Shown piece by piece: positions 50,112 to 56,168 of a stretch of DNA of 64,000 nt. The number at the start of each line of letters is the position of its first letter. Within the stretch, counting starts at the first letter, position 1. The position numbers and the translations under genes are program-made. The stretch comes from Amycolatopsis sp. NBRC 101858 (lineage in GTDB: Bacteria > Actinomycetota > Actinomycetes > Mycobacteriales > Pseudonocardiaceae), in assembly GCF_030269325.1 (NCBI RefSeq), contig NZ_BSTD01000005.1, positions 391,391 through 455,390 on the forward strand, written 5' to 3'. The notes under the pieces are model-generated. The model had not been told where the DNA came from. It worked only from the letters and a program-made list of their open reading frames with translations, and did not search any database.

Positions 50112-50932
50112 ATCTCGGAGGATTGCGTGTTCTGCAAGTGCTCCGCCGTGGGCGCATGATCGAGGTCAAGACCCCGAACGAGCTGCAGGCGATGCGGGCC
50201 GCCGGGCTCGTCGTCGCCCGCACGCTGGCGGCGGTCCGCGCCACGGCCAAACCGGGCGTCAGCACGGCCGAGCTCGACGAGCTGGCCGAGCAGACGATCC
50301 GGGACGCCGGCGCGGTGCCGTCCTTCAAGGGCTACCACGGCTTCCCGGCGTCGATCTGCGCGTCGGTGAACGAGCAGATCGTCCACGGCATCCCGGCGAA
50401 GACCCAGGTGCTGGCCGACGGCGACATCATCTCCGTCGACTGCGGGGCGATCCTCGACGGCTGGCACGGCGACTCCGCCGTGACGCTGGCCATCGGCGAC
50501 GTCTCCGACGCCGACCTGGCGCTGTCCGCGGCGACCGAAGCGGCGATGTGGGCCGGCATCGAGGCGGTCAGCGCCGGCGGCCGGTTGACCGACATCTCTT
50601 ACGCCGTCCAGTCGGCCGCCGAACGCGCGGGCCGCGACGACGGCATCGAGTACGGGATGATCGTCGAGTACGGCGGCCACGGCATCGGGCGCCAGATGCA
50701 CATGGACCCGTTCCTGCCGAACATCGGCAAGCCGGGCAAGGGCCCGCGGCTGAAGGCGGGCATGGCGCTGGCCATCGAGCCGATGCTGACCGGCGGCGGT
50801 GGCGAGACCCGCGAGCTGGACGACGGCTGGACGGTTGTCACGGCCGACGGCTCCCGCGCGGCCCACTGGGAGCACACCGTCGCCATCACCGAAGAGGGCC
50901 CGTGGGTCCTCACGGCTCCTGAGGACTCCTGA
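50108..50932 (+). CDS. map: Methionine aminopeptidase, type I
   Basis: A 274-residue enzyme that removes N-terminal Met from new proteins. Metal and active-site residues are in [20 protein letters not shown] (substrate His), [20 protein letters not shown] (two Asp), [19 protein letters not shown] (Glu) and WEHTVAIT. The start is uncertain: GTG 50108 gives the local GTGA coupling and an N-terminal extension, while ATG 50156 begins [13 protein letters not shown] without a visible RBS. Confidence 0.95.
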
Positions 50933-50997
50933 CCTGCGCTTTCACCCTTCCGTGGTGATCGACGTCACGTGCACCTGCGCATCCTCCTAGCATGATT

Positions 50998-51014
50998 ACC
51001 CCCGGTTTGGGGGT
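50998..51014 (+). terminator. Possible terminator of secY-adk-map
   Basis: ACCCCC, loop GGTTT, GGGGGT: a 6-bp GC stem 65 nt after the map stop. It overlaps the start of the infA promoter region. Confidence 0.4.
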
Positions 51015-51036
51015 CGCGACACGGGTTGCGTACACT
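51007..51036 (+). promoter_or_regulatory. Candidate promoter of infA and the alpha operon
   Basis: TTGGGG (51007-51012), 18-nt spacer, TACACT (51031-51036). The -10 fits the TANNNT consensus; the -35 is weak. Confidence 0.45.
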
Positions 51037-51194
51037 GTCAAGTCGGCGCACTTATCGCGCCCGGATCCGCGCGCTCGTGAACTCACGATCTTGGGACCCG
51101 GGCCCCAGTGTGCCACGCACCACCCAACCCAGCACTAGTGCTCGAGTTGATCAGGTGTGGCGACAGGCAATGCTGACAAGGAAATGCGGAGGAC

Positions 51195-51416
51195 ATGGCG
51201 AAGAAAGACGGGGCCATCGAGGTCGAAGGCCGCGTAGTCGAGCCGCTCCCCAACGCGATGTTCCGCGTCGAGTTGGAGAACGGTCACAAGGTCCTGGCAC
51301 ACATCAGCGGCAAGATGCGGCAGCACTACATCCGCATCCTGCCCGAGGACAGGGTTGTCGTGGAGCTCTCGCCCTACGACCTCTCTCGTGGTCGCATCGT
51401 CTACCGCTACAAGTGA
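51195..51416 (+). CDS. infA: Translation initiation factor IF-1
   Basis: A 73-residue OB-fold factor that binds the 30S A site. Begins [20 protein letters not shown] and ends [18 protein letters not shown] lies upstream. Heads the infA-rpmJ-rpsM-rpsK-rpsD-rpoA-rplQ string. Confidence 0.98.
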
Positions 51417-51449
51417 TCACGAAGAGCAGCTACTAGGAGAGCAGAAGAC

Positions 51450-51563
51450 GTGAAGGTCCAGCCGAGCGTCAAGAAGATCTGCGACAAGTGCAAGGTGATC
51501 CGCCGCCACGGCCGGATCATGGTGATCTGCGAGAACCTGCGGCACAAGCAGCGGCAGGGCTGA
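51450..51563 (+). CDS. rpmJ: 50S ribosomal protein L36
   Basis: A 37-residue protein, GTG 51450 to TGA 51561-51563, with AGGAGA upstream. It starts [20 protein letters not shown] and carries the zinc ligands Cys11, Cys14, Cys27 and His32, so it is the zinc-binding form. 33 bp after infA. Confidence 0.98.
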
Positions 51564-51768
51564 TCACTCGCACTCGACCAGAGTGGATTGACGGCTACAC
51601 ACCCTCCCCGCACCTGCCGGGTCACGCGAGTGGCCTGGTTCACCCCCGGACTTCAGGCCGGGGCCGGGACACCCGAAGCGCAAGCCGAGGGCACGACAGG
51701 CGAGTCGGTCCCGGAACCGGACGGGGAGCAGACCTGAAGATGAATTCAATGAAGGAGCATCAACGCCA
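51564..51768 (+). promoter_or_regulatory. 205-bp spacer upstream of rpsM
   Basis: No gene seen. It contains the hairpin CCCCGG-(8 nt)-CCGGGG (51644-51663) and GAAGGAG (51751-51757) as the rpsM RBS. A separate promoter or attenuator for rpsM-rpoA is possible. Confidence 0.4.
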
Positions 51769-52149
51769 ATGGCACGACTCGCTGGCGTAGACCTCCCCCG
51801 CGAAAAGCGGTTGGAGATCGCGCTTACGTACATCTACGGCATCGGCCGTACCCGCTCGAAGCAGCTCATCAAGGCTGCCGAGCTCAACGCGGACACCCGC
51901 GTCAAAGACCTCAGCGATGACGACCTCGCGAAGCTGCGTACGTACATCGAAGAGAACTTCAAGGTCGAGGGTGACCTTCGCCGCGAGGTGAACGCCGACA
52001 TCCGTCGGAAGATCGAGATCGGGTGCTACGAGGGCCTTCGCTGGCGCCGCGGACTTCCCGTCCGTGGTCAGCGCACGAAGACCAACGCCCGTACCCGCAA
52101 GGGTCCGAAGAAGACGGTCGCCGGCAAGAAGAAGGCTGGCAAGAAGTGA
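51769..52149 (+). CDS. rpsM: 30S ribosomal protein S13
   Basis: A 126-residue S13 of the 30S head. Begins [20 protein letters not shown] and contains [20 protein letters not shown]; the tail is basic (GKKKAGKK). Its stop overlaps the start of the 61-aa gene (GTGA), which is not the usual neighbour. Confidence 0.98.
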
Positions 52150-52331
52150 GCGTCCAGGGCAAGAAGGTCGTGCAGATGGGCGGCGTCCACCGCCGCGGCA
52201 CGGCTTGCGTTTCGCCCAAGGCGCTCTACGCCCGCCCGATGGCGCTCCGCAACCTGTACACCGACGCCGGATCGATCATCCGGCGCGGCCAGGCCGAAGC
52301 GGTCGCCGCTCACCAAGAGAACGCGCGCTAA
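52146..52331 (+). CDS. Novel 61-aa basic protein between rpsM and rpsK
   Basis: GTG 52146 overlaps the rpsM stop by GTGA and the frame ends at TAA 52329-52331, 18 bp before rpsK. The 61-residue product starts [20 protein letters not shown], continues [20 protein letters not shown] and ends [10 protein letters not shown]; it is basic, as ribosome-associated proteins are. Codons are strongly G/C-ending, so it is very likely translated. rpsM is normally followed directly by rpsK, and I recognise no family. A role in ribosome assembly or regulation is inference from position only. Confidence 0.75.
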
Positions 52332-52349
52332 CAGGAGAACCCTCAGAAC

Positions 52350-52757
52350 ATGCCACCGAAGTCTCGTACTGCGGCGGGGGCCAAGAAGGTCCGCCGCAAG
52401 GAAAAGAAGAATGTCGCGCACGGTCACGCGCACATCAAGAGCACCTTCAACAACACCATCGTCTCGATCACGGACCCGACCGGTGCCGTGATCGCGTGGG
52501 CGTCGAGTGGTCACGTGGGCTTCAAGGGCTCCCGTAAGTCCACCCCGTTCGCCGCGCAGATGGCCGCCGAGAACGCTGCCCGCAAGGCCGCCGAGCACGG
52601 CATGAAGAAGGTCGACGTCTTCGTGAAGGGCCCGGGTTCGGGCCGCGAGACGGCGATCCGCTCGCTGCAGGCGGCCGGCCTCGAGGTCGGCACCATCCAG
52701 GACGTGACCCCGCAGCCTCACAACGGCTGCCGCCCGCCCAAGCGGCGCCGGGTCTGA
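52350..52757 (+). CDS. rpsK: 30S ribosomal protein S11
   Basis: A 135-residue S11 of the 30S platform. Core: [20 protein letters not shown] and [20 protein letters not shown]; ends [12 protein letters not shown] 52350 has AGGAGA upstream. Confidence 0.98.
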
Positions 52758-52780
52758 GGAACGGGGAGGAGTAAGAAGAA

Positions 52781-53386
52781 ATGGCTCGTTACACCGGCCC
52801 CGCGACGCGTATTTCGCGTCGCCTCAAGGTTGACCTCATCGGCGGCGACCAGGCTTTCGAGCGTCGCCCCTACCCGCCGGGCCAGCACGGCCGCGGGCGC
52901 ATCAAGGAGTCCGAGTACCTCCTGCAGTCGCAGGAGAAGCAGAAGGCTCGCTACACCTACGGCGTTCTCGAGCGTCAGTTCGTCCGGTACTACAAGGAAG
53001 CCGTCCGGCGTCCCGGCAAGACCGGTGAGAACCTGCTGCAGATCCTCGAGTCCCGCCTGGACAACGTGATCTACCGCGCCGGCATCGCCCGCACCCGCCG
53101 TCAGGCGCGTCAGCTGGTGAGCCACGGCCACTTCCTGGTCAACGGCGTCAAGGTCAACGTCCCGTCCTTCCAGGTCTCGAAGTGGGACATCATCGACGTG
53201 CGGCCGAAGTCGTTCGCGATGCTGCCCTTCGTCGTGGCGAAGGAGTCCTACGGCGACCGCCCGATCCCGGCGTGGCTGCAGGTCGTCCAGTCCAACCTCC
53301 GCGTGCTGGTCCACCAGCTGCCGGAGCGTGCGCAGATCGACGTTCCGGTTCAGGAACAGCTGATCGTCGAGCTCTACTCGAAGTAG
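52781..53386 (+). CDS. rpsD: 30S ribosomal protein S4, zinc-free form
   Basis: A 201-residue S4 that starts 16S rRNA folding. Has RRPYPPGQHGRGRIKESEYL and the S4 domain RLDNVIYRAGIARTRRQARQ. No Cys cluster near the N-terminus, so it is the C-minus form. In E. coli S4 represses the alpha operon. Confidence 0.98.
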   Translation: MARYTGPATRISRRLKVDLIGGDQAFERRPYPPGQHGRGRIKESEYLLQSQEKQKARYTYGVLERQFVRYYKEAVRRPGKTGENLLQILESRLDNVIYRAGIARTRRQARQLVSHGHFLVNGVKVNVPSFQVSKWDIIDVRPKSFAMLPFVVAKESYGDRPIPAWLQVVQSNLRVLVHQLPERAQIDVPVQEQLIVELYSK

Positions 53387-53404
53387 TCCGGCACCGTCGG
53401 ACAA

Positions 53405-53433
53405 GGCGGCGGCGCGACAGGTGCGCCGCCGCC
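53405..53433 (+). other. Hairpin between rpsD and rpoA
   Basis: GGCGGCGGCGC, 7-nt loop, GCGCCGCCGCC: a perfect 11-bp stem 19 nt after the rpsD stop. It may lower read-through into rpoA or protect an RNA end. Confidence 0.6.
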
Positions 53434-53488
53434 GCGCCATCCCTTCGACGTCATATGGCGGGCGTCGTCTGGAAAGGAATTTGGAAGA

Positions 53489-54559
53489 ATGCTGATTTCC
53501 CAGCGGCCGGCTCTCGGCGAAGAGACGGTCAACGAGACCCGCTCCCGGTTCACCATCGAACCGCTGGAGCCCGGCTTCGGCTACACGCTCGGCAACTCGC
53601 TGCGTCGTACGCTGCTGTCGTCCATCCCGGGCGCGGCCGTGACGAGCATCCGCATCGACGGCGTGCTGCACGAGTTCACCACCGTTCCGGGGGTGAAGGA
53701 AGACGTCACCGACATCATCCTGAACCTCAAGGAGCTCGTGGTGTCCTCGGAAGAGGACGAGCCGGTCACCATGTACCTGCGCAAGCAGGGCCCGGGTGAG
53801 GTCACGGCGGCCGACATCGTGCCGCCGGCGGGTGTCACCGTGCACAACCCGGATCTGCACATCGCGTCGCTGAACGGCAAGGGCAAGCTCGAGATCGAGC
53901 TCGTCGTCGAGCGCGGCCGCGGTTACGTTCCGGCCCTGCAGAACAAGCAGGCGGGCGCGGAGATCGGCCGGATCCCGGTCGACTCGATCTACTCGCCGGT
54001 GCTCAAGGTGACGTACAAGGTCGAGGCCACCCGTGTCGAGCAGCGCACCGACTTCGACAAGCTGATCCTGGACGTCGAGACCAAGCCGTCGATCACGCCG
54101 CGCGACGCGGTCGCGTCGGCCGGCAAGACGCTGGTGGAGCTGTTCGGTCTCGCCCGCGAGCTGAACGTCGACGCCGAGGGCATCGAGATCGGCCCGTCGC
54201 CGCAGGAGGCGGACACCATCGCCGCCTACGCGATGCCGATCGAGGACCTGGACCTCACCGTCCGGTCGTACAACTGCCTCAAGCGCGAGGGCATCCACAC
54301 GGTGGGCGAGCTCGTCTCGCGCTCCGAGGCGGACTTGCTCGACATCCGCAACTTCGGCGCCAAGTCGATTGACGAGGTCAAGCTCAAGCTCGTCGGCCTC
54401 GGCCTCGCGCTGAAGGACAGCCCGCCCGGGTTCGACCCGACCGCGGCTGCCGCCAGCTACGACGGTGAAGGCTGGTCGGAGGGTGTCGGTGGCATCGCCG
54501 ACGGGATTTCGGACGGCCACGACGATGGCCAGGACTACGCAGAGACCGAGCAGCTCTAG
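53489..54559 (+). CDS. rpoA: DNA-directed RNA polymerase alpha subunit
   Basis: A 356-residue alpha subunit. N-terminal assembly domain: [21 protein letters not shown]-terminal DNA-binding domain (about 245-315): [20 protein letters not shown] and [20 protein letters not shown]. The last 35 residues are an acidic Asp/Gly tail ([14 protein letters not shown]). ATG 53489 has GGAAGA upstream. Confidence 0.99.
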
Positions 54560-54603
54560 GGCTCTGTGCCTGGACGCTGCGAGCTGAACTAGTAGGAGAA
54601 CCA

Positions 54604-55275
54604 ATGCCCACCCCTACCAAGGGAGCCCGGCTCGGCGGGTCGTCCGCGCACGAGCGGCTGATCCTGGCCAACTTGGCCACGCAGCTGTTCGAGCACGGCA
54701 AGATCACGACGACCGAGGCGAAGGCGAAGCGGGTCCGTCCGCTGGCCGAGAAGCTGATCACCAAGGCGAAGCGGGGCGACCTGCACAACCGCCGTCAGGT
54801 GCAGCGCGTCGTCCGTGACAAGGACGTCGTCCACAAGCTGTTCGCCGAGATCGGCCCGCACTTCGCGGAGCGCGACGGTGGCTACACCCGGATCACCAAG
54901 ACGATGCCGCGCAAGGGCGACAACGCCAAGATGGCGGTCATCGAACTGGTGCCCGAGAAGACCGTGACGAGCGAGGCCGAGCGCGCGCGCAAGACCAAGT
55001 TCGCCAAGGACGAGAAGCCGGCCGCCGTCGAGGCCCCGGCCGCCGAGGAAGCCGCTTCGGAGGCTCCCTACGGCGAGGGCAGCCACGCCGCGCTCGAGGA
55101 CGGGACGCAGCCCGAGGGCTTCCCGATCAAGGGCAACGACGAGTCGAAGTACTACCACACCGAGGACAGCCCGTACTACGAGCAGACCAAGGCCGAGGTG
55201 TGGTTCGCCACCGCCGAGGCCGCGGAAGCCGCGGGCTTCTCGCTGCCGCCGTCGCAGCAGGACGACGAGTCCTGA
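54604..55275 (+). CDS. rplQ: 50S ribosomal protein L17 with fused C-terminal domain
   Basis: A 223-residue L17. The core (1-117, [40 protein letters not shown]) is complete. An Ala/Glu linker (118-165) leads to an extra module, residues about 166-212: [48 protein letters not shown]. Its KGN/KxYH/AExxF/EAxAAGF pattern resembles the small sunset-type domain known from nuclease-linked proteins (recalled, not searched). GGAGAACC precedes the ATG. Confidence 0.96.
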
Positions 55276-56168
55276 CGACGGAAGCCGTTCCGGACGAGCC
55301 CGCCATCCCCGCTGGGGAAGGCGGGCTCGTTCGTCTGCGCCTGGACGTCTCCTACGACGGCACGGACTTCTCGGGCTGGGCTCGCCAGCCGTCGCGCCGC
55401 ACGGTGCAGGGCGTCCTGGAAGAGGCGTTGCACCGGCAGCCGCCGGGGGCTTCGGTGCCGAAGTCCGTGGTGGTCGCGGGCCGCACGGATGCCGGGGTGC
55501 ACGCGACGGGCCAGGTGGTGCACGTCGACGTCGTGCCGCTCACGGAGTCCTCCGGGCGGATTCCGGTGTCCCCGGAAGGGATCCCGGACCTGACCCGCAT
55601 GGCGGGCCGCTGGAACCGCCTCCTGCCCGGTGACGTCCGGGTGCTGGGCGCCCGGGTGGCCCCGGAGGGTTTCGACGCGCGGTTCTCCGCCGTGCGCCGG
55701 CACTACCGCTACCGCGTGTCCGACGCGCCGTGGGGCGTGGACCCGTTGCGCCGCAACGACACTCTCGCGTGGAACCGTCCACTGTCGACGGACGCGATGA
55801 ACGAGGCGGCGGCGTCCCTGCTGGGCCTGCAGGACTTCGCGGCGTACTGCAAGCAGCGCGACACGGGCACGACGATCCGCGAGCTGCAGCGCCTGGAGTG
55901 GCGGCGGGTGGACGAGCACCTGCTGGAGGTGGCGGTCTCGGCGGACGCGTTCTGCCACTCGATGGTCCGCAGCCTGGTCGGCGCCCTGCTCCTGGTGGGC
56001 GACGGCCGCCGAGGGCGCGACTGGCCGGCGGAGGTGCTGGCCAGCGGCGTGCGCGACAGTGCGGTGGCACCCGCGCACGGCCTCACGTTGACGGCGGTGG
56101 ACTACCCGCCGGACGCCGAACTGGCGGCCCGGGCGGAGCAGACACGCAACGTCCGCACGTCACCCTGA
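55200..56168 (+). CDS. truA: tRNA pseudouridine38-40 synthase TruA
   Basis: A pseudouridine synthase acting on positions 38-40 of tRNA anticodon arms. Catalytic core: [18 protein letters not shown] and [20 protein letters not shown], with the nucleophilic Asp in RTDAGVHA; also [18 protein letters not shown]. The start is a problem: there is no ATG, GTG or TTG in frame between the rplQ stop and the core. The options are GTG 55200 (76-bp overlap with rplQ) or CTG 55272, which has AGGA about ten bases upstream and overlaps the rplQ stop. Confidence 0.93.

Follow-up and report, generated by a model that had tools for sequence, protein, structure and literature searches.

In most bacteria, the genes of the ribosomal proteins uS13 (rpsM) and uS11 (rpsK) are adjacent. 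Small lineage-specific ribosomal proteins, namely bS22 and bL37, are described in actinobacteria (PMC5876184, PMC10085706). For coupled gene pairs, the NTGA overlap is given as the commonest spacing (PMC12548453), and short overlaps are reported to be enriched among subunits of one complex (PMC10666635). Here we analysed a 64,000-nucleotide stretch of DNA (the window) from Amycolatopsis sp. NBRC 101858, in which a small gene is predicted between rpsM and rpsK. The features of this locus are listed below.

51769–52149, forward strand: rpsM (uS13), the partner upstream of the small gene
52146–52331, forward strand: small gene of 61 codons, GTG start, TAA stop (52329–52331), basic product, assigned to a new family
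52146–52149, forward strand: GTGA, in which the GTG start (52146–52148) overlaps the rpsM stop TGA (52147–52149)
52155–52211, forward strand: variable N-terminal tail, residues 4–22, dN/dS 0.48
52233–52283, forward strand: conserved core RPxALRxLYxDAGxxIR, residues 30–46, predicted helix, dN/dS 0.17 (residues 23–47)
52333–52337, forward strand: AGGAG, Shine-Dalgarno-like site of rpsK
52350–52757, forward strand: rpsK (uS11), the neighbour downstream of the small gene, ATG at 52350

The preliminary description of this DNA had proposed a basic 61-residue frame that starts within the rpsM stop (GTGA), ends 18 bp before rpsK, uses codons as G/C-biased as those of its neighbours and leaves rpsK its own ribosome-binding site. 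Our reading agreed with it on all of these points. The gap from the stop of the small gene to the rpsK ATG is 18 bp, and AGGAG stands behind the gene. The predicted product of 61 residues has a net charge of +7 and a pI of 10.9. The GC3 of the small gene is 0.90, and that of rpsM, rpsK and rpsD is 0.82, 0.90 and 0.90. When rpsM, rpsK, rpsD, infA and rpoA were used as the reference, the frame of the gene had a codon-adaptation score of 0.72; the two remaining forward frames scored 0.28 and 0.23, and the three reverse frames 0.43, 0.48 and 0.24.

The frame was matched without any internal stop in all 80 genomes of the window's genus, which is more than chance would give. An intact frame was also found at 55 loci in named records (Amycolatopsis, Prauserella, Qaidamihabitans). 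At 145 of 145 loci (some genomes were counted twice, via two collections), rpsM and rpsK were both present with an open frame between them, whose start lies at or adjoins the rpsM stop. The products at these loci have 59–69 residues and comprise 72 distinct proteins. Their pI stays at 10.4–12.0 at every locus, and the gene sits inside a ribosomal protein operon. Another 14 loci, from divergent genera, also carry the small gene between rpsM and rpsK, with its place and overlap conserved. A frame disrupted or absent in close relatives had been named beforehand as evidence against the gene; no such case was seen within the genus, whereas 27 of the 46 genera of the family are without the gene.

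Substitutions among the relatives fall mainly at codon position 3. For the small gene, 44 distinct loci of the genus gave a dN/dS of 0.28, 75 distinct loci of a wider set gave 0.30, and 15 of a divergent clade gave 0.49. The neighbours evolve more slowly: within the genus, rpsM has a value of 0.12 and rpsK one of 0.03. When 80 distinct sequences were divided into segments, dN/dS was 0.48 for residues 4–22, 0.17 for residues 23–47 and 0.27 for residues 48–61, and M1, P31, A33, L34, R35, L37, Y38, G42 and R46 were invariant in 23 divergent members. Within the genus, synonymous change in the small gene is intermediate between rpsM and rpsK, and it exceeds both neighbours in the wider set and in the divergent clade. 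The conservation with purifying selection that the preliminary description had named as support was thus found (dN/dS 0.28–0.49 overall, 0.17 in the core). Judged by these substitution patterns, 52146–52331 is a true protein-coding gene under purifying selection, which is strongest in the core.

The same data bear on two explanations in which the frame has no product. Chance open frames are common at such G+C, and a 217-aa antisense frame (52068–52721) spans the site. We nevertheless regard it as barely conceivable that the small frame is open by chance or that the antisense frame is the real gene, given the dN/dS and codon-position pattern, the codon score of 0.72 versus at most 0.48 in the other five frames, and the frame being open at 145 of 145 loci. 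An RNA element, such as a ribosomal-protein binding site, could also lie here and be open as a frame by accident; the place inside a ribosomal protein operon would suit it, and RNA control sites are common in such operons. This is highly improbable, as changes are concentrated at codon position 3 and no reduction in synonymous change is seen. In addition, the rpsM–rpsK spacer folds no better than its shuffles (z-score −0.86), and no Rfam match was found within 50900–55500.

The overlap of start and stop is kept in 141 of the 145 loci, as GTGA in 139 and TGATG in 2, which bears out the overlapping start proposed at the outset. In the other 4, the GTG stands just downstream of the rpsM stop, and that stop is TAA. 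A comparison of the rpsM–rpsK spacer across relatives had also been suggested. We read 29 loci without the gene, from 28 genomes of 27 family genera and one genome of another family. In all of them rpsM directly adjoins rpsK, with a spacer of 23–57 nt at 26 loci and −1 nt at 3; 28 loci have TAA or TAG as the rpsM stop. TGA therefore goes with the overlap: it is used in the overlap loci, TAA in the loci with a moved start, and TAA or TAG in 28 of the 29 loci without the gene. These results suggested that the small gene is probably co-translated with uS13 through the overlap.

We found no credible relative of the product in Pfam, NCBIfam, PHROGs or the PDB sequences, and no match to any PDB ribosomal chain by sequence at E up to 10. 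The following matches were judged to be chance: NCBIfam PRK11264 (E 0.0057, 15.9 bits versus a cut-off of 406), NCBIfam PRK14725 (E 0.05), PDB N-acetylglutamate kinase/synthase (E 0.19), Pfam PF08115 (one member, E 0.18) and PHROG 5624 (one member, E 0.083). Literature searches on the gene and on new small or ribosomal proteins returned no description of the gene among the matches listed (the best 20 of 139 and the best 20 of 404). Consistently with the earlier statement that the gene was undescribed, it is by these sequence comparisons an orphan, a new family without relative in the searched libraries.

The AlphaFold2 model, built with 27 sequences, has a low-confidence start followed by a helix at residues 31–60 (ten-residue pLDDT means of 68, 84 and 82). 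The model is weak overall (mean pLDDT 66.5, pTM 0.33). Foldseek against the PDB gave 0 matches at E up to 10, an empty result that says little because it was obtained with a weak 61-residue model. Residues 31–48 are amphipathic, with a moment of 0.54 that only 3.7% of shuffles reached. The core RPxALRxLYxDAGxxIR probably forms an amphipathic helix, which follows a tail that is basic and variable.

A search of the family with a single sequence matched 102 of 297 genomes, and a profile search raised this to 115 of the 297, from 19 of the 46 genera, with one match per matching genome. Wider samples were searched with the profile as well. Among 397 genomes of the order, 46 matched, of which 45 belong to the window's family and 1 was judged a chance match; among 394 genomes of the class and 296 of the phylum, 3 and 1 matched, respectively, each of them from the window's family. 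No credible carrier outside the window's family was found in these order-, class- and phylum-wide samples. The one match outside the family, in genome G479 (E 1e-4, model positions 18–52, internal stop), was rejected, because that genome has rpsM on a different contig, where rpsK follows it directly (TAATG). The gene is clade-specific and limited to part of one family in the samples searched, as it is absent from 27 of the 46 family genera. The interpretation given in the preliminary description thus stands for a conserved basic gene with purifying selection, no library match and a kept overlap, but has to be restricted to one clade. The roles it had proposed, a ribosome-associated factor, an assembly helper or an operon regulator, are told apart below by their plausibility.

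Trees were built from the cluster proteins of 52 genomes (one for each of the 46 family genera and 6 others). In the FastTree tree, 13 and 5 carrier genera form two firm groups and genus g12 stands apart, whereas a quick IQ-TREE tree placed all 19 carrier genera in one supported group of 28 that includes nine non-carriers. The deep branches differ between the two trees, and the outgroup rows are not on one side in the IQ-TREE tree. The IQ-TREE tree requires four changes of presence, for which one gain with three losses would suffice. With all carriers in a single clade, the log-likelihood was lower by 54.8, but this arrangement was not rejected (p-AU 0.21). The simplest reading of these trees is one gain with none to three losses; there may also have been multiple gains.

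We also looked at uS13 for residues that vary with the gene. A column was counted if it is conserved in carriers but differs in two or more of three related lineages that lack the gene; there were 5 such columns of 117 in rpsM versus 17 of 4054 in 25 other proteins. Residue 92 of uS13 is W in 18 of the 19 carrier genera (H in g12) and in 4 of the 27 genera without the gene. Overall it is W in 22 and H in 24 of the 46 family genera, and H in 6 of 6 genomes of other families. The DNA pattern for W92 was present in 66 of 147 family genomes; a comparison by hand with the profile matches placed it in 58 of the 60 carriers and in 8 of the 87 remaining genomes. In the whole-cluster control, W92 ranked 17th of 8203 column states by association with the gene, behind states in secY (several), rplR, rpsK, rpsH, rpsC, adk, rplV, rpoA and rplO and another rpsM column. 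Only 2 to 4 independent pairs were available in this control, which does not suffice for a test. The co-variation, at first strong in appearance and suggestive of a contact site, failed the control, and W92 is not taken as a contact. Since sixteen cluster states track the gene better, W92 is best read as a mark of shared carrier descent. Residue 92 itself lies in a 13-residue stretch that is otherwise highly conserved.

How the product might act can be outlined as follows. The small gene would be translated by termination-reinitiation behind rpsM, so that the amount of the product would follow the amount of uS13. The basic flexible N-terminus may touch rRNA, and the C-terminal amphipathic helix may pack on a protein partner, for which uS13 would be the first candidate because of the coupling to rpsM. 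The gene would have arisen once, inside the window's family, and bacteria in general would do without it. The least certain part of this outline is that the product, through such contacts, serves the 30S subunit or newly made uS13 as a small accessory protein.

That a gene was gained between rpsM and rpsK, was retained there and has its start merged with the rpsM stop speaks for a task linked to the ribosome. A ribosomal role for the product is likely but unproven. Evolving faster than its neighbours and occurring in only part of the family, the product looks more like an accessory part or an assembly helper than like a core ribosomal protein. For an accessory protein we counted the conserved place and overlap, the TGA pattern, the purifying selection, the pI, the amphipathic helix and the precedent of bS22 and bL37 in actinobacteria; against it, the faster evolution than the neighbours, the 27 of 46 genera without the gene, the weak model and the failed co-variation control. 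On this balance, our best explanation is a clade-specific gene, probably coupled to rpsM, whose product is accessory to the 30S subunit or to freshly made uS13, and we regard it as tentative, at slightly less than an even chance. The wider statement, that a new ribosomal accessory protein or a uS13-dedicated chaperone was inserted between rpsM and rpsK in one actinobacterial family and wired to uS13 synthesis by the overlap, so that these bacteria would have a 30S component or assembly factor particular to their lineage, seems to us evenly poised between right and wrong.

Part of this evidence would also fit a dedicated chaperone, bound to uS13 (or uS11) in its free state and gone by the time the 30S subunit is mature. 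The predicted coupling to rpsM, the small size, the evolution faster than that of ribosomal proteins and the restricted presence all suit such an assembly helper. The same evidence is common to a resident 30S protein, however, and we know of no dedicated uS13 chaperone in bacteria, so we consider the helper possible but rather doubtful. A function unrelated to the ribosome, with a small basic protein (e.g. nucleoid- or membrane-associated) exploiting the strong expression of the operon, would agree with the finding that the product has no sequence relative of any known function. It is unlikely in view of the conserved overlap with the uS13 gene, rather than a separate gene elsewhere, and of the one copy per genome at the same place in all loci read.

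The product could instead bind mRNA or the transcription machinery and tune the expression of rpsM-rpsK-rpsD-rpoA. It is a basic protein inside the operon, and the long rpmJ–rpsM spacer (205 nt) would offer a possible target. But this spacer is 145–238 nt in 18 genera with the gene and 158–256 nt in 27 without it, and a spacer so similar in both does not go with the gene. The region 50900–55500 gave no Rfam match, and an operon regulator appears distinctly unlikely.

The rpmJ–rpsM spacer itself (51564–51768) was measured in 45 of the 46 family genera and spans 145–256 nt there, against 14 nt in two genomes from a different family of the same order. Its fold z-score is −1.79, and it may hold a promoter or leader.

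If the product has its place on the 30S subunit, these bacteria would have a new ribosome component specific to their lineage, with a possible bearing on the origin of new ribosomal proteins and on living with ribosome-directed antibiotics. The group is known for antibiotic producers.

Compared with described systems, the GTGA overlap of the small gene resembles the −4 nt overlap (NTGA) of coupled gene pairs. It differs in that the coupling is a predicted one here and the downstream member is not a known ribosomal protein. bS21 (PF01165) is a small basic helical 30S protein next to uS11 and in this is like the product. A relationship to bS21 was rejected, with no PF01165 match in 22 members of the small-gene family. 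The bS21 profile also gave 0 matches in the window genome, while in the control it matched 6 of 14 known genomes. The product is therefore at most an analogue of bS21.

bS22 of the actinobacterial 30S subunit (AURKAIP1/COX24 family, PF08213 COX24_C) is likewise small, basic, partly helical and restricted (PMC10085706), but it is much shorter and more basic. No PF08213 match was obtained in the 22 members scanned (Pfam, E up to 1), and the window genome has its own PF08213 match at C5:233635–233733, some 210 kb away. Replacement of bS22 by the small gene was rejected, as PF08213 was matched in 43 of 46 genera, including all 19 carriers. The three genera without a PF08213 match (g6, g35 and g38; genomes G084, G113 and G116) are grouped together in the trees, and a loss of bS22 is possible there.

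At E up to 10, only N-acetylglutamate kinase/synthase was matched when the product was compared with the PDB by sequence. bL37 of the actinobacterial 50S subunit offers the other likeness, as a small unannotated protein that was found only by cryo-EM (PMC5876184); it differs in having 24 residues and in being a 50S protein.
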